20,979 bases of DNA from positions 1 through 20,979 of IMG/VR virus record IMGVR_UViG_3300017708_001557; one strand, written 5' to 3'. The notes beneath the pieces are model-generated. The model did no database searches and had not been told where the DNA came from. It worked only from the letters and a program-made list of their open reading frames with translations. Below are positions 1 to 20,979 of this stretch, piece by piece (within the stretch, counting starts at the first letter, position 1; each line of letters begins with the position of its first letter). This stretch comes from a virus. The position numbers and the translations under genes are program-made.

Positions 1-221
1 AAAAGTGTTATTGCGTATTATGGGAGGAAAGACTGAAAGAAGATTTGTCTATTAAAATAGCAGAAGTTCTTTCAAGTAAGATAACAAAAGAGAGGCTAGC
101 ACTTAGTTTGGCTTCTCTAATTGTAGATAAGCACAGTGATGAAGAAGAATCCGTTAGGGCTTTAGAATACAGTTGTGAAAATGGTAATGCCCAATACTTG
201 ATGAATTGGGCGTTGCTTTGA
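1..221 (+). CDS. 3' end of an unknown gene (partial)
   Basis: An open frame enters from the left edge (codons in phase from base 3) and ends at TGA 219-221, giving about 72 C-terminal residues. The peptide is mostly helical and charged. It begins with a Cys-rich stretch (KCYCVLW) and ends with NAQYLMNWALL. I do not recognise the family. The next gene starts 26 bases downstream with its own ribosome site. The codon use and A+T richness match the neighbours, so this is probably a real gene whose start lies outside the window. Confidence 0.6.
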   Translation, partial: KCYCVLWEERLKEDLSIKIAEVLSSKITKERLALSLASLIVDKHSDEEESVRALEYSCENGNAQYLMNWALL

Positions 222-247
222 AATAGATGATTGAAGGTGTTTCAAAT

Positions 248-487
248 ATGCCCAAAAACATACAGACAATACAGAGGCTTGAGAAGGTCTTAGAACAAGG
301 CCCGATGAACCCACATGAAATAATGTACGCTTACAAACAAAGGTGGCCTAAGCACCAACCAACAATGTCTAGACTAGGTAATTTATTATCTAGACACCCA
401 CAATTCATATCTACGGGTATGGATAAGATAGAAGGTCCCATAGGTGCTGATAAAGTAAAAATATGGGCTTTAAATCAAACAGTATAG
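248..487 (+). CDS. Small winged-helix-like protein
   Basis: This is a protein of about 79 residues whose pattern suggests a winged helix-turn-helix: helix (IQTIQRLEKVLEQGP), helix (NPHEIMYAYKQRW), recognition-like helix (TMSRLGNLLSRHP), then a short wing with GADKVKIWAL. The same layout recurs in the gene at 13178-13405 (GP..s..qvY....L......MS.LGRLL..H), so the two look like paralogues. I chose the ATG at 248 because GAAGGTG sits 8 bases upstream. An in-frame ATG at 227 has no ribosome site. The likely role is DNA binding, perhaps as a viral regulator, but that is inferred from fold pattern only. Confidence 0.65.
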   Translation: MPKNIQTIQRLEKVLEQGPMNPHEIMYAYKQRWPKHQPTMSRLGNLLSRHPQFISTGMDKIEGPIGADKVKIWALNQTV

Positions 488-511
488 TAGTATCTGCAAA
501 GACTACCGATA

Positions 512-524
512 GGGTGCAAAGCCC
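512..524 (+). other. Short GGG/CCC hairpin with TGCAAAG loop
   Basis: In the 57-base spacer between two genes, GGG-TGCAAAG-CCC forms a 3-bp stem with a 7-base loop. A second TGCAAAG lies 20 bases upstream at 495-501. The same loop flanked by GG/CC recurs in the longer hairpin at 16446-16464. No T run follows, so this is not a clear terminator. It may be a protein-binding site, an RNA element or chance. Confidence 0.25.
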
Positions 525-544
525 GATGAAAATGAGGAATAAAT

Positions 545-1229: not shown

Positions 1230-1230
1230 A

Positions 1231-2384: not shown

Positions 2385-2591
2385 ATGATTAAACTAAGAA
2401 TATTGAATGAAACTGGACACACGGAATTAGAGATGGCTTCAGCAGAAGTTATTGAGCAGATTGACCAACACCCTACCCATTGGCTTTTTGTCGATGGTGA
2501 GATTGTTAGCAGAGAAAATATCACAGAGATAAATTGGGACACTGTTGAATCAGTAGATTTGACTCCCGCTATCGTTGGAGGCGGCTATTAA
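2385..2591 (+). CDS. Ubiquitin-like (beta-grasp) protein ending in GGGY
   Basis: This is a 68-residue protein that lines up with ubiquitin by pattern. Strand 1 is MIKLRILNETG, strand 2 HTELEMA, the helix SAEVIEQIDQH, strand 3 with its turn THWLFVDGEIV (compare RLIFAGKQL in ubiquitin), then a loop and the last strand VESVDLTPAIV. It ends G65-G66-G67-Y68. A C-terminal Gly-Gly followed by one extra residue is typical of ubiquitin-family precursors that a peptidase must trim. It could also be a ThiS/MoaD-type sulfur carrier, which uses the same fold and tail. I chose ATG 2385 with AGGTGA just upstream rather than the GTG at 2376. An E1-like gene lies about 2.6 kb downstream and a JAMM peptidase about 4 kb downstream, which fits a Ubl pathway. 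Confidence 0.7.
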   Translation: MIKLRILNETGHTELEMASAEVIEQIDQHPTHWLFVDGEIVSRENITEINWDTVESVDLTPAIVGGGY

Positions 2592-2631
2592 AACTAGCAG
2601 TACCAACTATATTTTTCTCAAAAGGTGTATC

Positions 2632-2910
2632 ATGCCCCTCTTCCGGAATTTTGAAGAGTGTAAGAGTATTGTCTCTCTTATGCTTGGAGATTTCTCGGAG
2701 GAGGGGCGAAAAAAAATAGAAGACACCATTATTTATTGTCAGCATTTAGATAGCGATGCTGACAAAACTTTCGCACTCACTCGTTCCGTAAAAAAACAAT
2801 TATGGGACATACCTAAAGCAGTTGATATAGGCTTTGTAGAATATCTAAAAGAAAAAGTATTGGAGATTTCAATACTTATTGAATATAAAAAGGTGAATAA
2901 TGATGAATAA
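2632..2910 (+). CDS. Unknown 92-residue helical protein
   Basis: I do not recognise the family. It appears all-helical: FRNFEECKSIVSLMLGDF, then EEGRKKIEDTIIYCQHL, then KTFALTRSVKKQLWDI and GFVEYLKEKVLEISIL. I chose ATG 2632, which has AAAGGTG 4 bases upstream, rather than a TTG at 2575 inside the previous gene. The end overlaps the next small gene by 8 bases. It has no membrane segments. It lies directly after the ubiquitin-like gene, so it may be a partner or substrate, but nothing in the sequence proves this. Confidence 0.55.
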   Translation: MPLFRNFEECKSIVSLMLGDFSEEGRKKIEDTIIYCQHLDSDADKTFALTRSVKKQLWDIPKAVDIGFVEYLKEKVLEISILIEYKKVNNDE

Positions 2911-3058
2911 TCCGGACTATGTACCTAACACTAGAGGTAGACCGATAGCAACTAGATGTAGAATATGTGGAGGACAATTAGTGAATCCAAAAGACTTCAA
3001 AAATGAAGCACATGAGAGTTGTCTCAAAAAATACAAATCGAATAAATATATGATGTGA
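2903..3058 (+). CDS. Short C2HC zinc-finger protein
   Basis: This is a protein of about 51 residues, easily missed because of its size. It holds TRCRICGG near residue 18 and HESC near residue 40, a Cx2C...Hx3C set of four zinc ligands. The tail is Lys-rich. Two ATG codons stand in tandem (2900 and 2903). The second lies at a better distance from AGGTGA at 2891-2896. The stop is followed at once by the next gene. Its size and ligand set resemble small treble-clef adaptors or DNA-binding knuckles. It belongs to the tightly spaced run that follows the Ubl gene. Confidence 0.55.
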   Translation: MNNPDYVPNTRGRPIATRCRICGGQLVNPKDFKNEAHESCLKKYKSNKYMM

Positions 3059-3063
3059 AAAAC

Positions 3064-4383
3064 ATGGATGTAGAAATAAGAATTAGAAGAAGAGGAATAA
3101 AATACGAACAAAACACTACAGTAGGTGTTTCTTTTATAAATAAAGAAACCAATGAAAAAAGAGAGTATGATGTTTTCATACCTCAAAGAGTTGCACAATT
3201 GACCCACATTTGGACTTTAAGCGACCAAAATGCAGTAAATAAAGCAGATGCTATAGCAGAAAGTCTTGCACAAAAGTTCTTTAAAGGTCTTAAAGAATAT
3301 TTTAGTGTTTGTCCCAATGACGAAATAGTTTATTCTTTTTGTGACATAGAAGTTTTTGTAGAAAAACCCTATGCTCTTAATGGCGTGAAGTTTTCATTGA
3401 AAGAATTAAGCAACAAACTTTCTAGATTTTCTTTGGCTTCTATGATAGTCGACGAAAGAGAAAACGACATAGAAAATAAAAGAAAGTCTATGAAGAAAAA
3501 AATAAGAACAATTATGAAAACTCCCGAAGATATCTTGTATGCTCTAGAGAACAGAGTACCGTTTTACTTCTTCAAAAAAGAAGATGACGACTACCGCACT
3601 ACAAAGCACGATGTTAGACTAAATCTAAAAAGAATAGGACACTCTAATTACGCACTAGAAATTAGTGATGGTGTTTGGGGTGAAATTTCGGAAAAAGAAT
3701 TGTTGACATATTTAGGTCACTACCGTCACGGATATAATCGTGGCACTTGGAAATTATTAAGTCCTTCAAAACTTTACTATAAAATATTAGGTAAAATGCC
3801 GTTAGATTCCGACCTAAAGGTTATGATTGCATTCTTATTACAAAACAGAACTCAAGACATAGTAGAAAAGAGAGCAAGGTCTTTGATGGCAGACATGGCA
3901 GAGAAATACAAAGACCGTGTTTTAATTGTCGAAGACTCCCAATACACGGCCACCAATAAAAGCAAACCAATAACTAAGGTATTAGTCAAAGGCCAAAGAA
4001 CAGATTGGCTTCTAGTTGAAAACTATTACTCTCGGAACAATAGAAACGACCCACAAAGAGTTTCTACTTATTGCTTAACTACTATAGTATATGAGGAGGG
4101 CGACACACTGCCGGATGGTTCAATAGCAAATAAACAAACAAGATTGGCCAAATGGAATGGCCCTATTTGTATAAATACAGGAGGAAAAAATCCATCGCTA
4201 GGAGACCAATTCGCATCAAGAATGTTATCTTTAATGAATGACAGTTCAGTTTCGGAAAGGGTTTCAACAATCAGCAATTATTATACAGTTGAAGATGAAA
4301 ATAGAATAAGAATACCTTTAATGGAGGAATATACAAATGAAAAAGATACCTATGATGAGATGTGTAGAGTGCGAGAGCAATAG
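3064..4383 (+). CDS. Large unknown protein between Ubl and TFB genes
   Basis: This is a protein of about 439 residues that I do not recognise. Residues 1-110 look beta-rich (VEIRIRRRG, VGVSFINK, EYDVFIPQ). Residues 135-165 are Lys/Arg-rich and helical. The middle, near 165-245, has a WGEISEKELLTYLGHYRHGY stretch. The C-terminal third has a strand (DWLLVENYY), then TYCLTTIVYEEG, then NGPICINTGGKNPSLGDQF and a helix. The isolated Cys of PICINTG, before a Pro and a helix, vaguely recalls the active-site loop of E2-like enzymes, but this is weak. ATG 3064 is preferred. A GTG at 3055 overlaps the previous stop and has no ribosome site. The last 47 bases overlap the TFB gene. Confidence 0.65.
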   Translation: MDVEIRIRRRGIKYEQNTTVGVSFINKETNEKREYDVFIPQRVAQLTHIWTLSDQNAVNKADAIAESLAQKFFKGLKEYFSVCPNDEIVYSFCDIEVFVEKPYALNGVKFSLKELSNKLSRFSLASMIVDERENDIENKRKSMKKKIRTIMKTPEDILYALENRVPFYFFKKEDDDYRTTKHDVRLNLKRIGHSNYALEISDGVWGEISEKELLTYLGHYRHGYNRGTWKLLSPSKLYYKILGKMPLDSDLKVMIAFLLQNRTQDIVEKRARSLMADMAEKYKDRVLIVEDSQYTATNKSKPITKVLVKGQRTDWLLVENYYSRNNRNDPQRVSTYCLTTIVYEEGDTLPDGSIANKQTRLAKWNGPICINTGGKNPSLGDQFASRMLSLMNDSSVSERVSTISNYYTVEDENRIRIPLMEEYTNEKDTYDEMCRVREQ

Positions 4384-5179
4384 TTTTAGTTTTGATGATA
4401 GGCTAGGAGAACAGGTTTGTGATGAATGTGGTTTAGTTTTGATAACAGAACCATTTGAACAAAACTCATACTCGTATGATGCTAATGGACAATTAGTTAG
4501 AGAAGCATGGAAATTACCTTCAACGAATGTTTCGTCAATGAAAAGTTGGGGTAAAACAGACAGGGCAATACATACAGGTATTGCCATGTGTAAGATTCTT
4601 CTTTCGTCATTAAGTTCTTCTAGTGCTTTAAGAGAAAGAGTAGATATACTCTATAGAGAGTTGTACAGAAAGCATGTATTTACTACATCTACATTAGAAG
4701 ATAGGTCGGCAGCATTAGTATATTACATACTAAGAGAATGCAATTTACCTTACACTCTAGAAGAAGTTTGTAGAGAATATGATTGCGCCTCAAAAAGAGT
4801 ATTCAAACTATCTAAAAAAATTGCATTAGCAATGAACAACACTAGTATTTTTCTAATAAATGATAGTAGACCATTTGCAGAAAAGTATGCTAGTAAAATA
4901 GGAGGTCCTTCTTTTGTATCTAAAGTTGGCCGACTAGCAGTTTATTTCGATGACTTTGTTGTTAAAAGTGGAGAAAATCTTAGACCTTCTTCACCCGCAG
5001 CGTTTTGTTACATTGTTTGTTTATTAGAAAACAGCGAAGTTTCACAAAAAACATTATCGGAAAAAACAGGTTTCTCAACTAGAACAATTTATAGAGAAAC
5101 GGAAAGACTACTAAAATTTAAAAATTTAAATAAAAATGAAATAAAAGGAAAGGGAATAGAATGGATAGAAATATATTGA
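4337..5179 (+). CDS. tfb: Transcription initiation factor TFB (TFIIB-like)
   Basis: This is a 280-residue TFB, the archaeal TFIIB homologue that recruits RNA polymerase to a TBP-bound promoter. An N-terminal zinc ribbon has C9, C12, C28 and C31 (CVEC...CDECGLVL). It is followed by a linker with REAWKLPSTN and KSWGKTD, then two cyclin-like repeats from about residue 85 to the end. The second holds a helix-turn-helix near KTLSEKTGFSTRTIYRETERLL. It is slightly shorter than cellular TFBs (about 300). GGAGG lies 9 bases before the ATG, inside the end of the previous gene. A viral TFB could redirect host polymerase to viral promoters, which is inference. Confidence 0.85.
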   Translation: MKKIPMMRCVECESNSFSFDDRLGEQVCDECGLVLITEPFEQNSYSYDANGQLVREAWKLPSTNVSSMKSWGKTDRAIHTGIAMCKILLSSLSSSSALRERVDILYRELYRKHVFTTSTLEDRSAALVYYILRECNLPYTLEEVCREYDCASKRVFKLSKKIALAMNNTSIFLINDSRPFAEKYASKIGGPSFVSKVGRLAVYFDDFVVKSGENLRPSSPAAFCYIVCLLENSEVSQKTLSEKTGFSTRTIYRETERLLKFKNLNKNEIKGKGIEWIEIY

Positions 5180-5739
5180 TAATAGGAGCAGGAGGAATCG
5201 GTAGTCATTTGATTAGGATTCTAGAAAGCGTAACAGGCGACGGAACAAAGGAACAATTGTATAGCATCAATGTTTCCGACCCCGATACAGTAGAAGAAAA
5301 GAACTTGACATATCAAGACTTTACTAAAGAAGACATAGGTAAAAAGAAAGTTCACTGTATGAAAAAGCACAGTCAAGTGAATGGTACAAACCCATATCCA
5401 ATATTGACTGAAACACAGTTGAAAGGATATGATTTGGTTGTATGTTGTGTAGATAATTTAGACGCTAGAAGGCTCTTGTATCGTTCACAGGTTAAATGGC
5501 TAGACTTGCGTTCTCAAGGGCGTAATGCGGCCTTTATTTCATACAAGGCTGACCCATCAATGTATGATACTATGTTGGCCGGTCCGGATGGTTCTTTTAG
5601 TTGTCAAGGTGATTCTTGGGATGGCTCTAATAAAGGACTACATTTCATGCATGTTGCTATTGCAGGAATGGCAGCAGAATGGATTCAGCGTTGGTTTAAT
5701 GGTGAATCAGTGAATGACTTCATGGTTGTGAATGTATGA
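5161..5739 (+). CDS. E1/ThiF/MoeB-like adenylating enzyme (compact)
   Basis: This is a 192-residue Rossmann-fold protein of the E1-like superfamily, which adenylates the C-terminal glycine of ubiquitin-like proteins or of ThiS/MoaD. Visible motifs are GAGGIGS (residues 9-15, nucleotide loop), VSDPDTVEEKNLTYQDF (D40, D42, N48, Q52), DIGKKKV (59-64) and DLVVCCVDNLDARR (91-104). A late Cys in SFSCQGD (C148) could be the thioester or persulfide residue. It lacks the Arg usual in the NxxRQ motif (Tyr51 here) and lacks the zinc CxxC pairs of MoeB. It is only a bare catalytic domain. Its ATG overlaps the TFB end by 19 bases, with AAGGGA upstream. The next gene overlaps it as ATGA. Confidence 0.85.
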   Translation: MDRNILIIGAGGIGSHLIRILESVTGDGTKEQLYSINVSDPDTVEEKNLTYQDFTKEDIGKKKVHCMKKHSQVNGTNPYPILTETQLKGYDLVVCCVDNLDARRLLYRSQVKWLDLRSQGRNAAFISYKADPSMYDTMLAGPDGSFSCQGDSWDGSNKGLHFMHVAIAGMAAEWIQRWFNGESVNDFMVVNV

Positions 5740-6329
5740 ATATATTTGCACTATCAACAGACCCCGTAGAATCAGCACAACAAATGCTAGACAAACATGT
5801 AATTAAAATGCCAACTGAAAGTTGTCAAATGTTACACACAAATTGTCTTTACTTTTTGTTTTGGAATTGTCATGGTAGAGAACCTTCATTGAAAGAGTTG
5901 AAGGAATTTCATAAAGAGTCGCACTTTAACTATTTGATGAAACCCGCTATGCTTAATCACCCTAGCACTATTTGGGCTAGACAAAATAAAGCAAATTACA
6001 TGTGGTTATACAATCATGCTATGGCACTATGTAAAGAATATACCTTTAGATATGGAAAGATTCACGGAACAGAAAAAAGAATACTGGATAGTTTTACATT
6101 CCCCTATGAAGAAGAAGACTTAACTCCTGTATCTATTGCTATGGCTGATATTTACAGACTACCAAAAGAAAAACATACTTGGGACTTTGTAATCAAGTCA
6201 TATCGCCATTATTACTTACAAGGGAAATGGGATTTCGCCTTTTGGAGTAAAAGAAAAGAACCGGAATGGTGGCCGGAAAACCACAGATATAATATGATAA
6301 AAAATAGAAAACCCTTTGGAGGAATATAA
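5736..6329 (+). CDS. Conserved phage-type DKHV/KMPTE protein
   Basis: This is a 197-residue protein with the pattern MNIFALSTDP...AQQMLDKHVIKM...ESCQML, then HPSTIWARQNKANYMWLYNH and EYTFRYGKIH. I know this arrangement from hypothetical proteins of marine bacteriophages and cyanophages. Some are labelled pyrimidine-dimer-glycosylase-like, a label I cannot verify here. Conserved Asp, Lys, His, Glu and the W-R pair suggest an enzyme, perhaps acting on DNA. The start overlaps the E1 stop (ATGA), and the next gene begins directly after the stop, so it is co-translated with the E1 and JAMM genes. It has no membrane segments. Its presence inside a Ubl-pathway cluster may be incidental. Confidence 0.7.
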   Translation: MNIFALSTDPVESAQQMLDKHVIKMPTESCQMLHTNCLYFLFWNCHGREPSLKELKEFHKESHFNYLMKPAMLNHPSTIWARQNKANYMWLYNHAMALCKEYTFRYGKIHGTEKRILDSFTFPYEEEDLTPVSIAMADIYRLPKEKHTWDFVIKSYRHYYLQGKWDFAFWSKRKEPEWWPENHRYNMIKNRKPFGGI

Positions 6330-6548
6330 ATGAAATATACAAATGAAGATTTAGGAAAAAGAATTGATTATAGCGATGATAGCGGTAGTTATTACGATGA
6401 GAGAATTGTAGAAGTCTATTGTGCAATATGCAGTTCTAGATTTGTAGGGCCGATTAGACATGCAGGTGGATTTATTGCAGGACATGAAGCGTTTCATGCT
6501 TGGGAATTTAAAATCGCTATGAATGCTGATGATGGGATGGTGGCTTAA
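6330..6548 (+). CDS. Small C2H2-type zinc-finger protein
   Basis: This is a 72-residue acidic protein with YCAICSSRF (Cx2C, near residue 31) followed by RHAGGFIAGHEAFHAW (Hx3H, near residue 52), a likely single zinc site. GGAGG lies before the ATG, which directly follows the previous stop. The next ATG likewise follows this stop. The finger sits between the E1-like and JAMM genes. In some archaeal Ubl operons, such as that of Caldiarchaeum, a small RING-like gene holds a comparable place. This finger has too few ligands for a RING, so an E3-like role is speculation. Confidence 0.65.
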   Translation: MKYTNEDLGKRIDYSDDSGSYYDERIVEVYCAICSSRFVGPIRHAGGFIAGHEAFHAWEFKIAMNADDGMVA

Positions 6549-7103
6549 ATGGGTAAAAGTGGAGAATGGCATTTGAGAGAAGAAGAAAAATCTATTCGTG
6601 ATGCTGAACAATATTGGGAATACCAAGACTCTATTGCTGCTGCTAGAAATGACATAATTCCTTTCTTACAAGGAGTATGGTCGAAGTTGTTTTTAGAATG
6701 GGGAGAAGATGCAATACACACAAAAGAATTGCAGGATGCAATATGGAAAGCATCGACGGTAATGTTACCTAATCTTGAAGTTCAAGTAGTAATTGATGGT
6801 AAAAATAGAGCCCATATTTCTTCGGGAACTTCGGGATATGTTAGTTTCTTACAACAACCTATAGGACTGAGTGTTCCGATTAAATGTTGGTTTCACACAC
6901 ATCCCTTTGGTGCTGCTTATTTTAGCGGTACTGATTGGAGTACTGTTATACCTTGGACTCCTCTAATGTCTTGTGCTTATGTTATTGGTGGAGATGACCA
7001 CTATGGTTTTTGGTCGAATCTTAGACCTAATGAATTAGAGATTAAACAAAAGGATGGTTCTTGGACTAATCAATATTATACTAAAGCAGGTGAAGAAGAA
7101 TGA
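6549..7103 (+). CDS. JAB/JAMM metallopeptidase
   Basis: This is a 184-residue protein with a complete JAMM zinc motif. H116 and H118 lie in WFHTHPFG, followed after seven residues by S126 and then D129 (FSGTDW). The upstream acidic residue may be E77 in the strand LEVQVVIDG. Residues 1-60 form a helical extension, and the JAB core spans about 62-165. Family members cleave isopeptide or C-terminal peptide bonds of ubiquitin-like proteins (Rpn11, PRTRC protein A, bacterial Mec+ and phage tail JAB). The obvious candidate substrate is the GGGY-ended Ubl at 2385-2591. It starts directly after the zinc-finger gene stop, and the next small gene overlaps its end as ATGA. Confidence 0.85.
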   Translation: MGKSGEWHLREEEKSIRDAEQYWEYQDSIAAARNDIIPFLQGVWSKLFLEWGEDAIHTKELQDAIWKASTVMLPNLEVQVVIDGKNRAHISSGTSGYVSFLQQPIGLSVPIKCWFHTHPFGAAYFSGTDWSTVIPWTPLMSCAYVIGGDDHYGFWSNLRPNELEIKQKDGSWTNQYYTKAGEEE

Positions 7104-7246
7104 ATAATATATTCAAGCAAATAATACGAAAGAAAATAATTGAAGATTGGGAAAAAGAATTTGACACTGCGTTTCTAGGAGATTCATCAAATGATGAACA
7201 CATAAAAATATTGGTTGAGGCATTAGTTAGGAGGGAAGAAGAATGA
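7100..7246 (+). CDS. 48-residue unknown protein
   Basis: This is a very short gene between the JAMM and GroES-like genes, overlapping both by 4 bases (ATGA at each junction). AGGTGA lies 8 bases before the ATG. The product begins MNNIFKQIIRKKIIEDW and is a charged amphipathic helix throughout, ending in VRREEE. The double stop/start overlap and the ribosome site make it likely to be translated. I do not recognise it. Confidence 0.6.
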   Translation: MNNIFKQIIRKKIIEDWEKEFDTAFLGDSSNDEHIKILVEALVRREEE

Positions 7247-7503
7247 TTGACACTTTAAATACTGCTAATAGCGATAGTAAAAACATGCAAGCGATTGGAG
7301 AATGGGTAGTAATTAAAAAAGACACAACAACAACTGCATCCGGTATCATCTCTGTAGGAGATAACACAGGAGTAGTTCTTGACTGTAAAGTAGATACTTA
7401 CTTGATAGGAAAGAGGGTTTGTTACAATGCAGAAAATAAACACTTTACACATGAAGGATATACCTTTGTAAAACATAGTGAATTGTATGGGGTGCTTGAA
7501 TGA
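7243..7503 (+). CDS. GroES-like co-chaperonin
   Basis: This is an 86-residue protein that follows the Hsp10 pattern: GEWVVIKKDTTTTASGIISV (compare DRVIVKR...GGIVL in GroES), NTGVVLDCK (the GxVLAVG strand), then YLIGKRVCYN and a last strand ELYGVLE (compare SDILAIVE). The mobile loop is shorter than in GroES. It is the lid that closes the folding chamber of a group I chaperonin. Its stop overlaps the ATG of the GroEL-like gene (ATGA), the usual gene pair, which strongly supports the call despite low identity. GGAGGG lies 8-12 bases before its own ATG. Confidence 0.75.
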   Translation: MIDTLNTANSDSKNMQAIGEWVVIKKDTTTTASGIISVGDNTGVVLDCKVDTYLIGKRVCYNAENKHFTHEGYTFVKHSELYGVLE

Positions 7504-9011: not shown

Positions 9012-9013
9012 TC

Positions 9014-9614: not shown

Positions 9615-9615
9615 A

Positions 9616-11627: not shown

Positions 11628-11631
11628 TACA

Positions 11632-11946
11632 ATGGGAAAGGAAATCTCTTACTTTGTTAAAAAATTCGGAGCAGCGACCGTTTTTGTTTTTGAATTGATG
11701 GATGAACTAAGTGATGTAGAAATAGCACACATGGGTTATGTGAATGGATTGATGTTAAGCAAAAAAGGAGTCAACACTCCTCAACAAATAATACTTGAAG
11801 AACATGACAGTTTTGACATGTTGAAATTTATATTAGCAGGAGATGTTTCAAAACATGAAAATTATATTTATAGAAATATTTTGATGGGGTTCTTTGGTAA
11901 AGAACATGGCTATTTAGGAATGAGTGTGGAGAGAAATGTTTCCTAA
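11632..11946 (+). CDS. Unknown 104-residue protein after ligase
   Basis: I do not recognise the family. The start YFVKKFGAATVFVFELMDEL looks like a strand-helix pair. Then come VEIAHMGYVNGLML and a C-terminal half with FDMLKFILAGDVSKHENYIY. It has no cysteines and no clear membrane span. I chose ATG 11632 with GGGTGAT upstream, which lies at the ligase stop. A TTG at 11620 overlapping the ligase is less likely. It overlaps the next gene by 11 bases. Confidence 0.55.
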   Translation: MGKEISYFVKKFGAATVFVFELMDELSDVEIAHMGYVNGLMLSKKGVNTPQQIILEEHDSFDMLKFILAGDVSKHENYIYRNILMGFFGKEHGYLGMSVERNVS

Positions 11947-13178: not shown

Positions 13179-13405
13179 TGGCCAATATTGTAGCAATAAG
13201 AATGATGAAAGCATTCCTAAAAACAGGGCCTAAGTCAACAGACCAAGTGTACAATCACTTGAATCAAAAAATGAAGTGGGGAGTATCTATGTCCGAATTG
13301 GGCAGACTCCTTGCGAACCATGCCGAACTTGTAGGCATACAAAATAAAAATGGATATTGGAGAAATAAAAATGAAACACAAGAGAGCGCAGAAGATAATA
13401 ACTAA
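13178..13405 (+). CDS. Small winged-helix-like protein (paralogue)
   Basis: This is a 75-residue protein with helix AIRMMKAFLKTGP, helix STDQVYNHLNQKM, recognition-like helix SMSELGRLLANHAEL and a wing (GIQNKNGYWRNKN). It matches the gene at 248-487 in length, order and key residues (GP, S-LG-LL--H). GGGTGAT lies before the ATG, which overlaps the previous stop by one base. The next gene overlaps its end by 35 bases. It probably binds DNA. Whether it regulates viral genes or assists replication cannot be told. Confidence 0.65.
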   Translation: MANIVAIRMMKAFLKTGPKSTDQVYNHLNQKMKWGVSMSELGRLLANHAELVGIQNKNGYWRNKNETQESAEDNN

Positions 13406-13634
13406 AATGTTAGATGAAGAAAAAGAAATGACTACAGGAGAAATATATGATAGGTTGAGAAACTATCAAGCATATTCTTCTAAAAGACATAGAAGAAATA
13501 CATCGCTAAATGTACCTATGAATGCTTTAGTCAACATTATGAAAAGAAAGGGTTTTGTCAAAGTTGGTTTCATAAAAAGAAACCTAAGAACAGGGGCTAA
13601 GGCCCAAGCAATTTGGAGTAATTCGGAGGAATAA
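13371..13634 (+). CDS. Small basic winged-helix-like protein
   Basis: This is an 87-residue, strongly basic protein: helix KRAQKIITKMLDEEKEM, helix TTGEIYDRLRNY, a basic loop (SSKRHRRNTS), helix MNALVNIMKRKGF and a wing with GAKAQAIWSN. The layout resembles the two other winged-helix-like genes (248-487 and 13178-13405), although this one has a longer basic loop. I chose ATG 13371 with GGAGA upstream. An ATG at 13350 is in frame but lacks a site. It follows its probable paralogue in tandem, which suggests local duplication. Confidence 0.6.
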   Translation: MKHKRAQKIITKMLDEEKEMTTGEIYDRLRNYQAYSSKRHRRNTSLNVPMNALVNIMKRKGFVKVGFIKRNLRTGAKAQAIWSNSEE

Positions 13635-13636
13635 AA

Positions 13637-14254
13637 ATGAAAGAAGATATATACGAAGGAAGCAACATACAAGATAGCGTAGTTACAGTTGATGTAACAC
13701 ATAACCACTATTCTAACAAAATAGTGAAACCACCTAATCATTATCCTAGCAAAATAGTGAAACCGATATTAACATTATCCGTGGCAATAATGTTAATAGG
13801 AGTTATAGGTTCTGTTGTATTGTATATTGATGATAATAGTTCCCCTAGTAATATAGAAGAAGAAGAACAACCGCCCTATCATAAGATTACATTTACTGTT
13901 TCCGATGATGATAAAGACTGTTACTCGGATGAGGACTATTTCTTAGTATTAAAGGTAGAGAACCAAGACTACCGACAATTAACAGCCATTGATTGTTTGA
14001 ACGGAAAGATTCAAGCAGATTCATGGGATATGTCATGGGGTGAAGGTTCATCAAATGATGGGGGAGATACTTATTCTACTTATTTAGGCCTAAGAAAATA
14101 CTTTGGCGAATGGACAACTGATGAATTCTATATGTTCATAGGTCGTTTTGATGACACAGATGAAAGATGGAAGACTACTTGTAAGACTCCGCACATAGAA
14201 AATGGCTATGATGTTTCTGCCGAGTATTGCGGAGAATGGTATTCTAATGATTGA
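13637..14254 (+). CDS. Single-pass membrane protein with acidic ectodomain
   Basis: This is a 205-residue protein. Residues 1-43 are a polar N-terminal region containing a tandem NKIVKP / SKIVKP repeat. Residues 44-63 (ILTLSVAIMLIGVIGSVVLY) form one membrane span. The rest is a very acidic domain with five cysteines that could pair as disulfides outside the cell. By the positive-inside rule the basic N-terminus would be cytoplasmic. The acidic, low-Lys ectodomain suits a marine surface protein. I do not recognise it. GGAGG lies 7 bases before the ATG. It ends 14 bases before the RFC gene, with the stop close to that gene's ribosome site. Confidence 0.65.
   Translation: MKEDIYEGSNIQDSVVTVDVTHNHYSNKIVKPPNHYPSKIVKPILTLSVAIMLIGVIGSVVLYIDDNSSPSNIEEEEQPPYHKITFTVSDDDKDCYSDEDYFLVLKVENQDYRQLTAIDCLNGKIQADSWDMSWGEGSSNDGGDTYSTYLGLRKYFGEWTTDEFYMFIGRFDDTDERWKTTCKTPHIENGYDVSAEYCGEWYSND
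13717..13764 (+). repeat. Short direct repeat, two 15-base copies
   Basis: CAAAATAGTGAAACC occurs at 13717-13731 and again at 13750-13764, exactly 33 bases apart and therefore in the same frame. It encodes the doubled KIVKP motif just before the membrane span of the surface-protein gene. It looks like a small internal duplication. Confidence 0.8.
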
Positions 14255-14268
14255 AAGGAGATGATATA

Positions 14269-15174
14269 ATGCTATGGACAGAAAAATACAGACCAAACAG
14301 ACTAAGTGAAGTTGTAGGACAAGAACACTTTGTAATGGATGCAACTAATTGGGCAGTCAATAAAGAAATGCCCAATGTATTAATTTACGGAGGTTCCGGT
14401 ACAGGAAAAACAACGGTAGCACTTGCTTTAGCAACAACTATCTTAGGAAAAGATGCTTCTAGTAATTTCTTTGAAGTGAATGCTTCGGATGATAGAAGAC
14501 TAGAAACCGTAAGGACTAGAATAAAAGAGATTGCCCAAAGTGCAAAAATGGGTGATGTTCCTTTCCGAATAATTCTATTGGATGAAATGGATGGAATGAC
14601 TAATGATGCACAAGCAGCCCTAAAAAGAATGATGGAAAGATATTCTAAAAATATTAGATTTATTATAACATGTAATAATCGAAACAAAATAATTTATGCA
14701 CTACAATCTAGGTGTGCAAACTATCACTTCAAAAGAATAACTTTTGAAACAGTTGAAGAAGTTGTTACAACTATTCTCAAGAGAGAAGGTCATCCGATTC
14801 CGGATGGATTGAGACAGTTTATATATTGCTTTGATGGTGATTTAAGACGAACAATAACCGAACTACAAGCATCAATCGCTACAGGTAGTAGGCTAAATGT
14901 TCAAGTCGAGAAATCGCTGAAACAATATGAAAATATAATAACTGAAATAACAAATAAAAATCCAAATGAAGTTTTAACAAAATTACATAATCTAATCTAT
15001 GACGGATTCTCCATTAAGGAAATCTGCATAGGTCTACATGACATTGTTATTGCATCCGAAATGGATAGTAATACGAAATTGAAATTCCTGCGAGTAATTG
15101 GAGAAGGTGAATGGCGTTCCCTAAACATGACCCCGAAATTACTTGCTTCATGGATGGTGGGAAATCTCATATAA
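14269..15174 (+). CDS. rfcS: Replication factor C small subunit (clamp loader)
   Basis: This is a 301-residue AAA+ ATPase that opens PCNA and loads it on primed DNA. It starts MLWTEKYRPNRLSEVVGQEH, the classic RFC N-terminus. It has Walker A GGSGTGKTT (41-49), Walker B LLDEMDGM (103-110), a sensor-1 region FIITCNNRNK and the SRC arginine-finger motif (147-149). A lid and a helical collar fill the C-terminal third. Cellular archaeal RFC-S proteins are 315-330 residues, so this is slightly trimmed. I chose ATG 14269 with AAGGAGATGAT upstream, not TTG 14251. It should assemble with the PIP-box ATPase at 12333-13178 and the clamp at 17694-18452. Confidence 0.95.
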   Translation: MLWTEKYRPNRLSEVVGQEHFVMDATNWAVNKEMPNVLIYGGSGTGKTTVALALATTILGKDASSNFFEVNASDDRRLETVRTRIKEIAQSAKMGDVPFRIILLDEMDGMTNDAQAALKRMMERYSKNIRFIITCNNRNKIIYALQSRCANYHFKRITFETVEEVVTTILKREGHPIPDGLRQFIYCFDGDLRRTITELQASIATGSRLNVQVEKSLKQYENIITEITNKNPNEVLTKLHNLIYDGFSIKEICIGLHDIVIASEMDSNTKLKFLRVIGEGEWRSLNMTPKLLASWMVGNLI

Positions 15175-15186
15175 GGAGGTATAAAT

Positions 15187-16398
15187 ATGCAAAATGAAAT
15201 AAGCAAAGCAGCAGAGAAGTTGGGCATCAGTGTTACTGAGGCTCAATCGAAATTTGAAAGTATATGTGAAGAGAACAAGGTGTCTACGGATTCCCCTCTA
15301 GCAAAAGGTTTGTGGAGAAGTTACGCTTCTCAACAAATCCGAATGATACAGACCGAAAAAACAGACGGAAAGAAAGGAAAGAAAGGATTTGGCGATGACG
15401 CTTTTGGATTCTTTATTTCACTTGAAGAACCTAGAGATATGATGGCATATAATCGAAAGAGAGCCATTGACGAATGGAACCGTGACCCGTTTAACGCACA
15501 TCAAAACGGACTAGTAGCAACAGCAGAAAAGAATACAGAGGGCAATTATGTCGTATCTAGATTCTTTAATGGTGAAGAACAAACCCGAACAATGGGCAAA
15601 CTAGCAGAAGGAGCAGAATACTTAGAAGATGGTAGTATTATCATTCCTCTAGATTCTCAACAACGATATCAAAATGGTGGAGAAAATGCCAACTACGGAA
15701 AGCCTCTAGCAAAGGAACTAATGCGAAGAAGTGGTGTCTTTATCGGAAAGGTAGGAGATGATACTGAATACAATAAGTATTATTTCTCATACAAGAATGA
15801 AGGTGGAATTAAGTTTAACCCCTCAACATTTGAGTGGGTTCATATGTCTGTAATTAAAGACTCAAACAGAGACGGATATATTTACGGATATTCTATGAAG
15901 ACATTAGGTTCTCTTGTCATGAATGCAGATGTTGACCCCGAAGGAGATATTTACAGAGATGTCTCTTCTATCAATGTCTTTGACAAGGCAAGTGAATTAG
16001 TTGCAGAAAACATTGCTTCTTTGACTCTACTAGATGCAAAACATCTTGAGTTACGAGAAAATGCAGCAGTGGACAGGTTTGTAATGACGATGGGTACAGT
16101 TTGTAACATGAATATGACTCCAACTTCAAATGGAAACCGTATTCTAAACTTGACTGATTTGAATGCAGACTTCGACTATGATACTGACGGAATGACAACT
16201 TGTTGGATTCCCGAACACATTAACATTGACTTTGGTATTGGTTCCGAAGTCGTAGTGGTTGGTAGAACTTCTCAAAGAGAAGGTGAAGATGGTTATGAAC
16301 CTGCAACAATTAACCTTTCGGGACTTTATGTAACAGAAAGAAAAGGACAAGTAGAGGAAATTGGTGATGCCCAAGAAGAAGACCTTGATTGGTTTTGA
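15187..16398 (+). CDS. RPA-like ssDNA-binding protein
   Basis: This is a 403-residue protein. Residues 300-385 fit an OB fold (GTVCNMNMTPTSNGNRILNL, then TTCWIPEHI, FGIGSEVVVVGRTSQ and INLSGLYV). Residues 70-270 probably hold one or more further beta domains. The extreme C-terminus is acidic and ends DLDWF, like the tails by which SSB and RPA proteins recruit partners. It has the strongest ribosome site in the window (AAGGAGGT, 6 bases from the ATG), fitting high expression. It lies between RFC and the RecA-like ATPase. Assignment as RPA rests on the OB pattern, tail and context. Confidence 0.75.
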   Translation: MQNEISKAAEKLGISVTEAQSKFESICEENKVSTDSPLAKGLWRSYASQQIRMIQTEKTDGKKGKKGFGDDAFGFFISLEEPRDMMAYNRKRAIDEWNRDPFNAHQNGLVATAEKNTEGNYVVSRFFNGEEQTRTMGKLAEGAEYLEDGSIIIPLDSQQRYQNGGENANYGKPLAKELMRRSGVFIGKVGDDTEYNKYYFSYKNEGGIKFNPSTFEWVHMSVIKDSNRDGYIYGYSMKTLGSLVMNADVDPEGDIYRDVSSINVFDKASELVAENIASLTLLDAKHLELRENAAVDRFVMTMGTVCNMNMTPTSNGNRILNLTDLNADFDYDTDGMTTCWIPEHINIDFGIGSEVVVVGRTSQREGEDGYEPATINLSGLYVTERKGQVEEIGDAQEEDLDWF

Positions 16399-16445
16399 TT
16401 GAGTAATTCTCAAGCCGTGTATATGTGGCGGTTGAATGACATACG

Positions 16446-16469
16446 AATAGGTGCAAAGCCTATTTTTTT
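16446..16469 (+). terminator. Hairpin plus T run after the RPA gene
   Basis: AATAGG-TGCAAAG-CCTATT makes a perfect 6-bp stem with a 7-base loop, followed by a run of T (16463-16469). It lies 48 bases after the RPA stop and just before the likely start of the next gene at 16480. It may terminate or attenuate the abundant RPA transcript. Archaeal termination depends mainly on T runs, so the hairpin may have a different role. The stem-loop core GGTGCAAAGCC is shared with the spacer at 512-524. Confidence 0.45.
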
Positions 16470-16479
16470 AGTGATTGAT

Positions 16480-16677
16480 ATGATAACAATAGAAAATAAA
16501 ATGATAATAACGAACAGGGCAATGATGCCCGTAGAAAAACTGCAACATGTTTCTTGGAAAATAACACAGAGTAAATGTGAAATAAAACTATACTCTTGTA
16601 ATTCTAATCCTATAGTGCAGGAATGTAATAATAGTGAATTAGAAACATTCCTACAACACCTAAAGGGGGTTGTCTAA
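16480..16677 (+). CDS. Unknown 65-residue protein
   Basis: I do not recognise the family. It looks like a small beta-rich fold (MITIENKMIITNRAMM, then VSWKITQSKCEIKLYSC) with a C-terminal helix (ELETFLQHLKGVV). The frame is open from TTG 16399, directly after the RPA stop, which would add 27 residues. However, that start has no ribosome site, and the extension would run through the hairpin and T run at 16446-16469. ATG 16480 has GTGAT 4 bases upstream, so I prefer it. The stop overlaps the next ATG by one base (TAATG). Confidence 0.5.
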   Translation: MITIENKMIITNRAMMPVEKLQHVSWKITQSKCEIKLYSCNSNPIVQECNNSELETFLQHLKGVV

Positions 16678-16922
16678 TGACTGATACAATTTACATTGTA
16701 GATGGGTTTGTTGAAAAACTAACTGATGGTCAAGGTATTTGGGTCGTAGATTTACAGAGTGTAGAGTTTATTACATGGAGACAAAACTACGAAACTAACG
16801 AATATTTTACAAAAATGCATATTGGAGATAAAGATGCCAAACTACTTTTAGAAACTAAAGAAGAAGTAGAAGAATTAGTTTCGGCATGGAAAACCCGTAG
16901 GGGAGATTTAAATGATGAATAA
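16677..16922 (+). CDS. Unknown 81-residue protein
   Basis: I do not recognise the family. Beta strands predominate in the first 55 residues (DTIYIVDGFVEKL, GIWVVDLQSVEFITW, YFTKMHIGDK), then an acidic helix (TKEEVEELVSAWKTR). Length and strand pattern are similar to the gene just upstream, so they might be distant relatives. AAAGGGGG precedes the ATG, and the 3' end overlaps the RecA-like gene by 11 bases. Its place among replication genes suggests an accessory role, without direct evidence. Confidence 0.6.
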   Translation: MTDTIYIVDGFVEKLTDGQGIWVVDLQSVEFITWRQNYETNEYFTKMHIGDKDAKLLLETKEEVEELVSAWKTRRGDLNDE

Positions 16923-17697
16923 AAATAAGAAAACAGAAATAAATATTGAAGGACTTAGAAGCAAACTTCTAAAACAGACTGAACAGCATAAGAATGCTCC
17001 TAAAAGAATTAGGGTAGGAATTGAAGGTGATGCCAAAACGGGTAAAACTGGATTAGCAATGGATTGTGAAAAGAAAACATTCTATTTGGATGTAGACAAT
17101 GGCTCCGTTCCTACATGGAAAGCAAACCATAATTCTACAGACAGGATTATTATTTTTAATCCTGCTGAACATGATGATGAGGGAGAGTTTTTGCCTTATG
17201 AAACACAAGGAAACATTCGTTCTTTTATTGCTTTGGCTAAAGAAACTGCAAAGACAGAAGACATTCTTTTTGTTTGGGATGGAGTAGATACATGGTTAGA
17301 TTGGTGTACTCTATACATGGCAGGAATGGAAACATCTAGAATGCGACCAATGAAAACTGCTAAACAACAAGATTGGTTTCATCGAAATCAACCATTTAGA
17401 GAAGTAATGAAAGAAGTAGAAGCAATTGATTGTGACCAAATTTACATTACTCACACTAAACCACCATTTAGGGATGAACCGCCGCAACCAATTTGGAACC
17501 GATGGGATTCTCATTTGTGGACAGTTCTGCAAACTTATCAAAGAAATACACAGAAAGGAATGGAGTATTTTGTAACAGTCAAGAGTAGTAAATACAAGCC
17601 TTCTCTTTTAGGAAAAAGAACTTCATTCTTATCTGTTAATAGAGATGGCCAAGTTAATTGGACTGGATTTAAGGAATTGAAGGAGGGAGATGTATGA
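16912..17697 (+). CDS. RecA-core ATPase, Sak4-like
   Basis: This is a 261-residue P-loop ATPase. Walker A is EGDAKTGKTG (K45, T46). A strand FYLDVDNG follows it, and Walker B is ILFVWDGVD (118-126). A later strand QIYITHTKPP fits the position where RecA-type ATPases have their sensor. Size and order fit the Sak4/RadA-core proteins that phages use for single-strand annealing or recombination, often encoded beside an SSB as here. It has no zinc finger or N-terminal domain of cellular RadA. ATG codons at 16912 and 16915 are both possible, with GGGGAGAT upstream. It overlaps the PCNA start by 4 bases (ATGA). Confidence 0.75.
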   Translation: MMNKNKKTEINIEGLRSKLLKQTEQHKNAPKRIRVGIEGDAKTGKTGLAMDCEKKTFYLDVDNGSVPTWKANHNSTDRIIIFNPAEHDDEGEFLPYETQGNIRSFIALAKETAKTEDILFVWDGVDTWLDWCTLYMAGMETSRMRPMKTAKQQDWFHRNQPFREVMKEVEAIDCDQIYITHTKPPFRDEPPQPIWNRWDSHLWTVLQTYQRNTQKGMEYFVTVKSSKYKPSLLGKRTSFLSVNRDGQVNWTGFKELKEGDV

Positions 17698-18452
17698 AAT
17701 TTACAGTAGACGCAAAAGCATTTAGAACAGCATTAGAAGATGTAATGGGTGGAGGAAAGTATGCTCAAAGTGGCGGAGTTAAATCCGGCATTCTAAGTGA
17801 ATATGTATATTTAGATATGGGAACTACTGGACTAGACCTATGGAACGGTGATGGCAGTTACATAAACAAAATAACTCTAGACATTACTATACTAGATGAC
17901 TCCACAAGAAACGCAGTTGTGAATATCAAAACACTACTACCTTTTCTTAAAAAACTGAAAGAAGAAATAGAGATAACCATTTATGATAATGTTTTAATTT
18001 CTACACAAGATACTGACATTACTCTACCTAGAGTAACACAACACCCACATCACGAAGTAATACAGAGACTTCTTCTAATGGATTTAAAACTAGAAAATGA
18101 ACTGCCTCAATTTAATGGTGTTTCATTTGAAGGAAAGTTTGACTTGCCTGTTTCAGTTTTCAAAGATGCTATCGAAAGATGCGAACTTATAGGAACAGGC
18201 GTGTATAAAATAGATTGGAATGTAAAAAACATAAACGAACTGAAAATTTCTTCTTCTGTAACAGGTGTAAAAGAATACATTACTACAGTAGAAGTTTCAA
18301 ATGGTTTTGGAGATTCTGCCACAGTATGTTTTACCGGACCGCTTCACCGATTCTTTGATAACGGTGATATTACCTTTTATGTAAAGGATGAATTCCCTAT
18401 TTTAATAGTAGGAGAAGACCGTCTTTTAGTTAAAGTTCCGCACATGGAATAA
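17694..18452 (+). CDS. pcn: PCNA-like sliding clamp
   Basis: This is a 252-residue protein, the normal size for archaeal PCNA (about 245). The first domain begins MKFTVDAKAFRTALEDVM and includes TGLDLWNGDGSYINKITL, matching the first clamp repeat. The second half repeats the topology (FKDAIERCELIGT, then INELKISSSVTG, VEVSNGFG) and ends ITFYVKDEFPILIVGEDRLL and VKVPHME, like the last strands of PCNA. Sequence conservation is low, so the context (RFC small subunit, PIP-box ATPase, polymerase next door) is part of the case. AAGGAGGGAG precedes the ATG, which overlaps the previous stop. It should ring DNA as a trimer and tether the polymerase. Confidence 0.75.
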   Translation: MKFTVDAKAFRTALEDVMGGGKYAQSGGVKSGILSEYVYLDMGTTGLDLWNGDGSYINKITLDITILDDSTRNAVVNIKTLLPFLKKLKEEIEITIYDNVLISTQDTDITLPRVTQHPHHEVIQRLLLMDLKLENELPQFNGVSFEGKFDLPVSVFKDAIERCELIGTGVYKIDWNVKNINELKISSSVTGVKEYITTVEVSNGFGDSATVCFTGPLHRFFDNGDITFYVKDEFPILIVGEDRLLVKVPHME

Positions 18453-18460
18453 GTGATAAA

Positions 18461-20206
18461 ATGATTATAACAAATAACAATAACAATGTGTATCTTTCTT
18501 GGAGAGATAAAAATGGAATTAAAGTGATTAAAAATGATACTTACAAGCCTTACTTTTTTGTTAAAGAAGATGCTAGAGAACCGACTAACTACCAAGTGAC
18601 AAAAACGATTAGTAGAGAATATGAATACGAACACGGCGATTGGTTTAATTTAGAAGGGGATAAACTAAAGAAAGTTTATGTTGATATGCCAAAAGACATT
18701 TACCAAGCAAAAGAAAACTTTTCTCAAACCTATGAAGCAGATGTTCCTTTTCATTACAGGTATGCAATAGATAACATAAATGAAATGCCCGAATACAATT
18801 TAAGAAAGTGGTATTGGGATATGGAATGGCAACAAGGTGGAGAACATGATGGAAAGATTACTGCTATTGTAGCCTATGATAATTTTGACAATCAATTCTA
18901 TACATGGACTTGGCAACCTTCTAAAAACGATACTATTGTAGAGCCTAAAGTTGATGGCTACAATTGTGTAATGTTTGCAGAAGATAGCGAAAGTGCAATG
19001 ATTCAACAGTTTTTAATGTGCATGGAACTTTGCGACCCCGATATGTTAATTGCTTGGTTTGGACTAAAGTTCGATTTGCCTAAACTACTAGAGAGGTGTT
19101 GTGCCAATAATATTAGCCCACTAAAAATATCTCCACTAGGAGTTATTGAGGGAGTACACTACAAAAATGAAAAGTGGACATTTAGTAAATCGAATGGTTA
19201 TGGTCCAACTGCTCAACCCATTAAGGGTAGAATAACTCTTAACTTAGACTTGGCCTTTGAAAGACAATGGAATGATGCTCAAAGAGGCACACTACCTAGT
19301 CTATCATTGGACTATGTTTCTAAGACACTATTCGGTGAAGGAAAGCATACTGAGACTAAGTTTGAAGACCCTAATGAGTTCTACCGTAGAGCATGGATTG
19401 AAGACCCATCAGCCTATTTACAATACGCAATAATAGATGTAGAACTTCTTAGAAAAATAGACGAAGAGAACTTTACTTCGGAGGCTATTCTATCTTTGCA
19501 GAGATTACTACTAGCACCATTCGATGCTTGTTTCTTTGCATCTAATATGGGTTCTATGTACTTTATGCGTAATGCTTGGTGGAAAGCACCAACAGGTAGT
19601 AAGCCTAAGCATAAGGTATGTGATTCATGTGGTTACAAAAACCCTAATGATAAGAAACTGAAAATATGCAAAAAGTGTAAAGAGAGTCTTTCTTATTCCG
19701 GTGCTATGATTTACAATCCCTTGGATGAAAATACCAATGGGTTGCACTACAATGTAGCAGCGTTTGACTTTGCAGGACTATATCCTAGTATGATTATTGC
19801 TAGGAATATTTCTTTTGAGACTAAGAGTAATGTAGAAACAGTATTTGGTGCTGATTTGAATACTCCTCAAAACTTGAAAGAAGTTGATGATGACTATGAA
19901 AGAAAAATGTTGTACTACACTACAGAAGAATTGGGACTATTGCCTAAGTCTTTGTTGGCTTTGAAAGATTTGAGAAACGAATACAAGGCTAATATGAAAG
20001 AGGCTAGAAACAATGGTGACAAAGAACAGACTGCCAAGTGGAATAATAATCAAATGGCTGTTAAGAGACTAATGGCATCCTTTTATGGCATCCTTGCATA
20101 CAAAGGGTTTGGTTGGTCCGATGTAGATTTAGCCGCTAGTATTACTGCTAGTGCTAGAGAAGCAATTAGATTGGCGGCGTTTAAGGCTAAGGAGATGAAA
20201 GTATGA
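18461..20206 (+). CDS. polB: Family B DNA polymerase, N-terminal part (lacks motif C)
   Basis: This is a 581-residue large fragment of a replicative family B polymerase. Exonuclease motifs: Exo I WDMEW (D120, E122), Exo II WFGLKFDLPKL (D205) and Exo III YAIID (Y322, D326). Palm motif A is DFAGLYPSMI (D436) and motif B KRLMASFYG (K535, Y542), with Ala where Asn is usual. The protein then ends at residue 581, about where motif C (DTDS) and the thumb should begin. No DTDS is encoded in the rest of the window. A four-Cys zinc ribbon (C387, C390, C403, C406) is inserted before motif A. It is either a split enzyme, as in Methanothermobacter, or interrupted. The following gene overlaps its stop (ATGA). 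GTGAT precedes the ATG. Confidence 0.92.
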   Translation: MIITNNNNNVYLSWRDKNGIKVIKNDTYKPYFFVKEDAREPTNYQVTKTISREYEYEHGDWFNLEGDKLKKVYVDMPKDIYQAKENFSQTYEADVPFHYRYAIDNINEMPEYNLRKWYWDMEWQQGGEHDGKITAIVAYDNFDNQFYTWTWQPSKNDTIVEPKVDGYNCVMFAEDSESAMIQQFLMCMELCDPDMLIAWFGLKFDLPKLLERCCANNISPLKISPLGVIEGVHYKNEKWTFSKSNGYGPTAQPIKGRITLNLDLAFERQWNDAQRGTLPSLSLDYVSKTLFGEGKHTETKFEDPNEFYRRAWIEDPSAYLQYAIIDVELLRKIDEENFTSEAILSLQRLLLAPFDACFFASNMGSMYFMRNAWWKAPTGSKPKHKVCDSCGYKNPNDKKLKICKKCKESLSYSGAMIYNPLDENTNGLHYNVAAFDFAGLYPSMIIARNISFETKSNVETVFGADLNTPQNLKEVDDDYERKMLYYTTEELGLLPKSLLALKDLRNEYKANMKEARNNGDKEQTAKWNNNQMAVKRLMASFYGILAYKGFGWSDVDLAASITASAREAIRLAAFKAKEMKV

Positions 20207-20310
20207 AATGCAAAAAACCACTAAAACACAACCCTCAATTTGAAGGAAAGATTAACTGCAAACAGTGTGAAAAAGAAGCAAAGGAGGATGAAACTAATGT
20301 GGGCATGTAG
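20203..20310 (+). CDS. 35-residue zinc-knuckle-like peptide
   Basis: This is a very small gene overlapping the polymerase stop by 4 bases (ATGA), with AAGGAGATGA upstream. The product starts MKCKKPLKH and later has NCKQCEKEAK, so three cysteines (one, then CxxC) and a His could bind one zinc. Its end overlaps the next zinc-protein gene by 14 bases. It sits exactly at the polymerase break, so it is either a true small gene or the start of an insert dividing the polymerase. Confidence 0.5.
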   Translation: MKCKKPLKHNPQFEGKINCKQCEKEAKEDETNVGM

Positions 20311-20563
20311 AGAAGAGGATTGTGAATCATATGGCAAATACAACATAGGAGACAGACAGGACAAAGAAACCGGATATGAAGAACACTACTGTAAGTCTTG
20401 TGATGTTCCTTTAGTCCGGTATAGTCCCGACCCCGACAACCCTAAAGCAATGTGGGCATGGAGAAGAGTAGGTTGGAAAACAATAAAAGAAGTTGAAGAA
20501 TACGATGTCGTTGTCACTAAAACAAAAATAACATATAGAGATGTGAGGGTTGAAGATGATTGA
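20297..20563 (+). CDS. Small zinc-ribbon protein
   Basis: This is an 88-residue protein with MWACREEDCESYG (Cx4C) and later YCKSCDVPL (Cx2C), a likely zinc ribbon, followed by WAWRRVGWKTI and a charged beta-rich tail (VVVTKTKITYRDV). I chose ATG 20297 because AAGGAGG lies about 9 bases upstream. ATG 20288 is too close to that site, and a TTG at 20240 has none. It overlaps the next gene by 8 bases. I do not recognise the family. Confidence 0.6.
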   Translation: MWACREEDCESYGKYNIGDRQDKETGYEEHYCKSCDVPLVRYSPDPDNPKAMWAWRRVGWKTIKEVEEYDVVVTKTKITYRDVRVEDD

Positions 20564-20810
20564 ATACAGTTTAGGAATTGTAGCAGGTTATGTTATAGCC
20601 AAAACACTAACTCCCTATTCTCCTAGTATAATAATTAAAAATTATCACATACACCATTGGATGTGGGGCAGCGCATTATTGCTTATTATTTTGTATCTAG
20701 GAGTAGATAACTACGCATTTAACGGGCTAGTAACAGGTGTAGTATTAGAGGGATTAACATATAAAAATTGGAAACTTAGGAGTGATAAAAATGGGAAACG
20801 GAGCAAGTAA
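20556..20810 (+). CDS. Small multi-pass membrane protein with HIHHW motif
   Basis: This is an 84-residue hydrophobic protein with spans near residues 4-18, 37-51 and 53-67 and a basic tail (NWKLRSDKNGKRSK). Between spans one and two lies NYHIHHWMWG, a cluster of three His and two Trp that could bind a metal or sit at the membrane surface. GAGGG lies before ATG 20556. The function is unknown. A viral membrane or envelope-related or lysis-related role is possible. It overlaps the next gene by 20 bases. Confidence 0.6.
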   Translation: MIEYSLGIVAGYVIAKTLTPYSPSIIIKNYHIHHWMWGSALLLIILYLGVDNYAFNGLVTGVVLEGLTYKNWKLRSDKNGKRSK

Positions 20811-20979
20811 AAGCATAGACAGAAAACTATTGAAAGCATGTATTGATTTAACCTTTGATAATTTAGAAGACGATAAAATATATCTTAAGAAAGAATTGTA
20901 TAGTTTCGCCATTGAAAATTATACTGTAGTTAGTAAGCAATTGACAGGAAACCCCTCTACGCAATTCTCAAACTCAAGA
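20791..20979 (+). CDS. 5' end of an unknown gene (partial)
   Basis: The frame opens at ATG 20791, with GGAGTGAT about 7 bases upstream, and runs off the right edge after 63 codons without a stop. The visible part begins MGNGASKSIDRKLLKACIDL and continues as mixed helix and strand (KKELYSFAIENYTVVSKQL). I see no motif C of a polymerase in it, so it does not appear to be the missing polymerase half, at least in this stretch. Function unknown. Confidence 0.55.
   Translation, partial: MGNGASKSIDRKLLKACIDLTFDNLEDDKIYLKKELYSFAIENYTVVSKQLTGNPSTQFSNSR

Follow-up and report, generated by a model that had tools for sequence, protein, structure and literature searches.

Isolates of the HF1 group of haloarchaeal viruses contain no GATC and no CTAG (PMC7230728), and among haloarchaeal tailed viruses GATC is absent from those without a Dam methyltransferase and kept in those that carry one (PMC8651126). 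Many 6-mers have also been lost from haloarchaeal viruses, and AGCT is additionally absent from HRTV-7 (PMC7230728, PMC8651126). Phages, too, are known to eliminate palindromic type II recognition sites, and non-temperate viruses do so preferentially (Rusinov et al. 2018, PMC6286503). Here we analyse the short words missing from the complete IMG/VR record IMGVR_UViG_3300017708_001557 (20,979 bp, G+C content 0.35; hereafter the window), which its gene content identifies as a fragment of a magrovirus, and from the relatives of that virus. Magroviruses are tailed double-stranded DNA viruses with Poseidoniales (marine Group II archaea) as their predicted hosts.

A comparison of magroviruses with the HF1-group and other haloarchaeal tailed viruses shows clear similarities: both are tailed double-stranded DNA viruses of archaea with a family B DNA polymerase (PolB), both have reached zero GATC, and both have lost further palindromic tetramers. 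Our own counts in haloviruses, observed over expected, were 0/208 for GATC in HVTV-1, and 0/121 for GATC and 0/47 for TGCA in HRTV-25. The sets differ, in that the haloviruses examined share the loss of GATC and CTAG, whereas magroviruses share the loss of GATC and AGCT, and mostly of ACGT, CGCG and CCNGG, with CTAG kept in most lineages. Methyltransferases are also frequent in haloarchaeal viruses and almost never found in magroviruses. The survey of Rusinov et al. found complete or near-complete elimination in about one-tenth of viral genomes (PMC6286503); in contrast, the core sites are gone from essentially all members of the magrovirus group, and about 27 motifs are missing from a single 95-kb genome. 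The mechanism is already known from the HF1-group haloviruses, and what is unusual is how complete it is throughout the group and how many motifs are involved. Restriction-site avoidance is not mentioned in two magrovirus papers (PMC10160649, PMC5628999); the founding description (PMC5434244) lay outside this check, and priority is uncertain.

The initial annotation, made by reading the sequence, held that GATC, AGCT and ACGT are missing from the whole window, although several tens of each would be expected by chance. Direct counting on both strands gave 0, 0 and 0, against 50.9, 49.2 and 19.6 expected from a Markov model of the window's own tri- and dinucleotides, with Poisson probabilities of zero of 8e-23, 4e-22 and 3e-9, respectively. 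A second null model, in which synonymous codons were shuffled 1000 times with every protein and the codon usage preserved, gave means of 50.2, 56.1 and 36.2 and minima of 37, 37 and 22. The observation is confirmed. Single synonymous changes that would create a site number 191 for GATC, 246 for AGCT and 146 for ACGT in the coding sequence, and all three words are therefore continually within mutational reach. It had also been noted that other palindromes persist, and this is so for CTAG (109 copies, common as claimed), CATG (82), TGCA (80), TCGA (30) and GTAC (25); CTAG, CATG, TGCA and GGCC are close to their Markov expectation, but TCGA and GTAC fall short of it, at ratios of about 0.7 and 0.5.

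The three named words were correct but did not make up the full list. CGCG is also absent from the window (6 expected, which alone is weak evidence), as are YCWGR (0 against 92 expected) and CCNGG (0 against 22). CCAG/CTGG occurs 6 times against 63 expected, and CCAGA, CCAGG, TCAGA and TCAGG with their complements are all at zero, indicating that the CCAG deficit is largely that of the degenerate palindromes YCWGR and CCNGG; CCAGC is likewise at zero, so YCWGR alone does not account for the whole deficit. The remaining copies (Table 1) gave an apparent strand bias, with none on the plus strand and six on the other, but this candidate was rejected, as all genes lie on the plus strand and each of the six copies is part of RTCCAGT, a tolerated context. 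At least six motifs that resemble recognition sites are avoided in the window: GATC, AGCT, ACGT, CGCG, YCWGR and CCNGG. By the published definition of elimination (observed/expected below 0.1 with an expectation above 15; PMC6286503), GATC (0/51), AGCT (0/49), ACGT (0/20) and YCWGR (0/92) are eliminated. YCWGR was also at or near zero in three relatives, with 0/138 in G001, 0/117 in G004 and 1/83 in L027. We know of no prototype restriction enzyme for YCWGR.

Relatives were collected as about 100 loci from searches with the chaperonin and PolB; the window's PolB gene served as the probe to find and place them, using the best 80 of 475 IMG/VR relatives. Repeating the counts on these related contigs gave near-zero values in essentially every magrovirus contig examined, as the initial annotation would predict. 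In 78 PolB contigs totalling 1.01 Mb, with near-identical copies of the window left out and counting confined to contigs where at least 8 copies are expected, observed over expected was 0/2,706 for GATC, 1/2,665 for AGCT, 16/954 for ACGT and 2/347 for CGCG. Neither GATC nor AGCT occurs in G006 (90 kb), G008 (96 kb), G033 (95 kb), G026 (86 kb) or G007 (185 kb), where 206 to 513 of each are expected. Complete absence spans G+C contents from 0.33 to 0.46 and about 67 metagenome identifiers. In distant viruses with 35-39% chaperonin identity AGCT is gone and GATC nearly so, with ACGT kept in some. The group shares a core of avoided sites consisting of GATC, AGCT and, mostly, ACGT, CGCG and CCNGG, to which lineage-specific sets are added. 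All seven GATC sites of G013, a GATC-poor 71-kb relative, lie in one 4.3-kb stretch (45807-50082, L116) where AGCT and GTAC are still absent; this stretch probably entered as a cassette from a virus that avoids a different set of words. A magrovirus-like contig without GATC or AGCT and with a PolB 51% identical (L144, NZMJ01000151.1) was binned in a Maricaulis metagenome-assembled genome, probably as contamination.

The additional sites vary among lineages. Of 61 contigs scored for GTAC, 27 avoid it, and this trait switches about 13 times on the PolB tree; avoidance of TCGA, CCGG, GGACC, GCAGC, CAGAG, CACTG and CCAG also varies among magrovirus contigs. Comparison of the window with L006, to which it is 79% identical in DNA over the aligned part, shows that none of the window's sites for GTAC (0/22), CTTGC (0/23) or CTAAC (0/28) is conserved, whereas 40 of 90 CTAG and 30 of 73 CATG control sites are. 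Extra sites are thus purged by lineage, while control sites persist at equal divergence.

The strongly avoided words are mostly dyad-symmetric. Across 28 magrovirus sequences, symmetric words made up 119 of 124 tetramers, 58 of 87 pentamers and 54 of 121 hexamers, against expectations of 14, 5 and 1.4; p-values for this excess are only nominal because related contigs share history and are not independent. A scan of G033 for degenerate palindromes found 27 motifs absent or nearly so, including CCNGG, GGWCC, GCWGC, CTSAG, TGSCA, GTYRAC, GGYRCC, GRGCYC, RGCGCY, GAATTC and ATGCAT, several of which we take to be recognition sequences of well-known type II enzymes. This combination of mostly self-complementary words and, in the longer ones, degeneracy of the type II kind points to avoidance of type II restriction sites.

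Self-protection by methylation appears to be rare in the group. No methyltransferase of families PF02086, PF00145 or PF01555 was found in 14 magrovirus contigs longer than 50 kb, and about 80 records yielded one complete methyltransferase, in G003, and, in one further record, a weak and incomplete match at the end of a contig. As a recognisable methyltransferase is almost never encoded, purging seems to be the main anti-restriction strategy of magroviruses, which judging from their gene content seem to rely on it rather than on self-methylation. The G003 methyltransferase lies between two PolB parts (L150 1408-2184, contig IMGVR_UViG_3300011254_000441) and, among solved structures, most resembles M.RsrI; five more distant virus contigs (L156-L160) carry related genes. 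An attempt to read its target from a restored word was ambiguous, as GTAC persists in four of the six carriers and is missing from the other two, and relatives in which no such gene was detected also keep GTAC. The 110 proteins of the near-complete G033 were compared with four hidden Markov model (HMM) libraries; virion, replication and repair proteins were listed, and no restriction enzyme or DNA methyltransferase was among the top 25 families per library, although restriction enzymes are poorly covered by HMMs.

Taken together, these results are best explained by purifying selection from type II restriction in the Poseidoniales hosts, a reading to which we assign a probability of about 0.87. 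The claim of the initial annotation that the missing words reflect selection through restriction-site avoidance is supported by the dyad symmetry, the group-wide pattern, the lineage-specific purging and the near-lack of protective methyltransferases. Poseidoniales populations would possess type II restriction-modification systems by which incoming DNA is cut at these words, and a virus genome in which mutation creates a site would likely be destroyed on entry, so that purifying selection, acting largely through synonymous changes, would keep such sites at zero. The core sites would correspond to restriction systems encountered by all magroviruses, and the variable sites (GTAC, TCGA, CCGG, GGWCC, GCWGC and others) to enzymes of certain host lineages. 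From the host side, the direct evidence that comes closest is the methylation of CGCG, TCGCGA and GGTAG in a single-molecule real-time (SMRT) methylome of marine Group IIA (MGIIA) genomes (PMC9516812), in which CGCG matches one avoided site. A pattern for archaeal 16S found no match among the viral contigs. Several points weigh against this explanation. The assignment of Poseidoniales as hosts is a prediction taken from the literature, the cognate host enzymes are inferred from the virus sequences, and a constant core across such divergent viruses is unexpected if host restriction systems turn over fast. In addition, non-palindromic words have been lost, such as GTAGA in G008 (0/157) and CATCC in G033 (0/99), a loss that type IIS or III enzymes would require.

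The constancy of the core could instead be accounted for by a sequence-specific nuclease encoded by the magroviruses themselves, which would cut host or competitor DNA at GATC or AGCT while the site-free virus remained immune without a methyltransferase, leaving host restriction to explain the variable sites only. Restriction enzyme-like nucleases have been described in Apasviridae and an HsdS-like protein in Aoguangviridae (PMC12999244, PMC10768690), and G033 encodes PD-(D/E)XK and ERCC4 nuclease domains. Such domains are typical of replication and repair, however, the top 25 families listed per library for G033 included no restriction enzyme, and GATC is also missing from haloviruses, where host restriction is documented; we regard a viral nuclease as very unlikely. 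Another host defence could also select against the words, such as phosphorothioation- or modification-dependent systems, a BREX-like system, or type IIS, IIG or III enzymes; the non-palindromic losses speak for this, and a haloarchaeal phosphorothioation system with a GATC motif is among the work cited in PMC7230728. Such defences are a highly improbable source of the pattern: almost every avoided tetramer is self-complementary, in keeping with dimeric type II enzymes, site purging is rare for type I, IIG and III systems (PMC6286503), and the strand bias expected of type III evasion was not seen, with no word avoided on one strand only in contigs longer than 30 kb and two isolated 5-mers in shorter contigs. 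Further non-palindromic losses among G008, G033, G013 and G026 include GCTCC (0/49) and CTCTTC (0/64), and non-palindromic elimination in these four relatives runs counter to the published rule that such purging is rare.

That the words are missing without any selection, through compositional or mutational bias or an artefact of library or assembly, is almost certainly wrong. Mild palindrome depletion does occur in many genomes, including the control phages: in 76 contigs of T4-like phages drawn from the same collection, and in part from the same metagenomes, GATC stands at 0.42 and AGCT at 0.41 of expectation. However, zero was reached for GATC in only one of the 76 and for AGCT in 14 of 64, and T4-like contigs from magrovirus-bearing metagenomes (3300006735 and 3300006737; L165 and L167) retain both words. 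The expectations were already built on observed tri- and dinucleotides or on codon usage, the absence is complete over the range of G+C content and metagenomes given above and over the 185-kb contig, and palindromes of equal composition are retained. This explanation is already contradicted, and a library or assembly artefact was rejected on the same grounds. Among five named viruses GATC was at zero in the two haloviruses and not in the cyanophage, the pelagiphage or the Vibrio phage, and no word was strongly avoided in a 20-kb stretch of E. coli.

The assignment of the window to the magroviruses is a match to published descriptions of their gene set, which comprises a split family B polymerase, a GroEL-type chaperonin, a replication factor C small subunit, an ATP-dependent ligase and a TFB-like protein (PMC10768690, PMC12999244). 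The window encodes the same replication genes and chaperonin as Magrovirales (Aoguangviridae, Apasviridae; PMC10768690, PMC12999244), and its recognisable genes all lie on the plus strand (Table 1). A Sak4-like ATPase is also encoded, as judged by Pfam/PHROG profile matches.

Table 1. Annotated features of the window, with position and supporting matches.
Feature	Position	Strand	Evidence or remark
TFB-like protein, N-terminal zinc ribbon	4337..5179	+	Pfam Zn_Ribbon_TF, E 1.3e-6, narrowly below curated cut-off
GroEL-type chaperonin	7500..9011	+	Pfam Cpn60_TCP1, E 1.1e-41; PHROG 5725, E 4.5e-114; typical of magroviruses
ATP-dependent DNA ligase	10101..11627	+	Pfam DNA_ligase_A_M, E 2.5e-36
Replication factor C small subunit-like clamp loader	14251..15174	+	Pfam AAA and Rep_fac_C
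Family B DNA polymerase, N-terminal part (probe for relatives)	18461..20206	+	PHROG 262, E 3.5e-67
Six remaining CCAG words	2413..17830 (CTGG on + at 2413, 6084, 11265, 17048, 17663, 17827)	-	All inside RTCCAGT, hence outside YCWGR

Two further loci in the window may be of interest. A small protein encoded at 11924-12352 and present in 69 loci gives a weak match to homing endonuclease models (E 7e-5); it has a LAGLIDADG-like C-terminal helix, with the usual acidic catalytic residue seemingly missing, and is perhaps a DNA-binding derivative. Two genes lying close together at 5161-5739 and 6549-7103 encode an E1-like ThiF protein and a protein that matches the JAB domain weakly, under the curated cut-off; they are possibly a virus-encoded pair for ubiquitin-like conjugation and deconjugation.

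Poseidoniales are abundant in surface oceans and uncultured, and little has been published on their defences. We tentatively propose, as a possibility somewhat short of an even chance, that magroviruses worldwide are under dense and stable restriction, with a fixed core (GATC, AGCT and mostly ACGT, CGCG and CCNGG) purged group-wide and 10 to 20 more sites purged per lineage. If this is true, the set of words missing from each virus would serve as a map from which the restriction specificities of its uncultured host could be read, that for YCWGR among them. With some words lost completely and others by lineage, this virus group offers a means of predicting the restriction specificities of hosts, and of assigning viruses to them, from sequence data alone. 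Sites have been eliminated throughout a virus group in which self-methylation is very limited, suggesting that restriction may act as a main constraint on these genomes.

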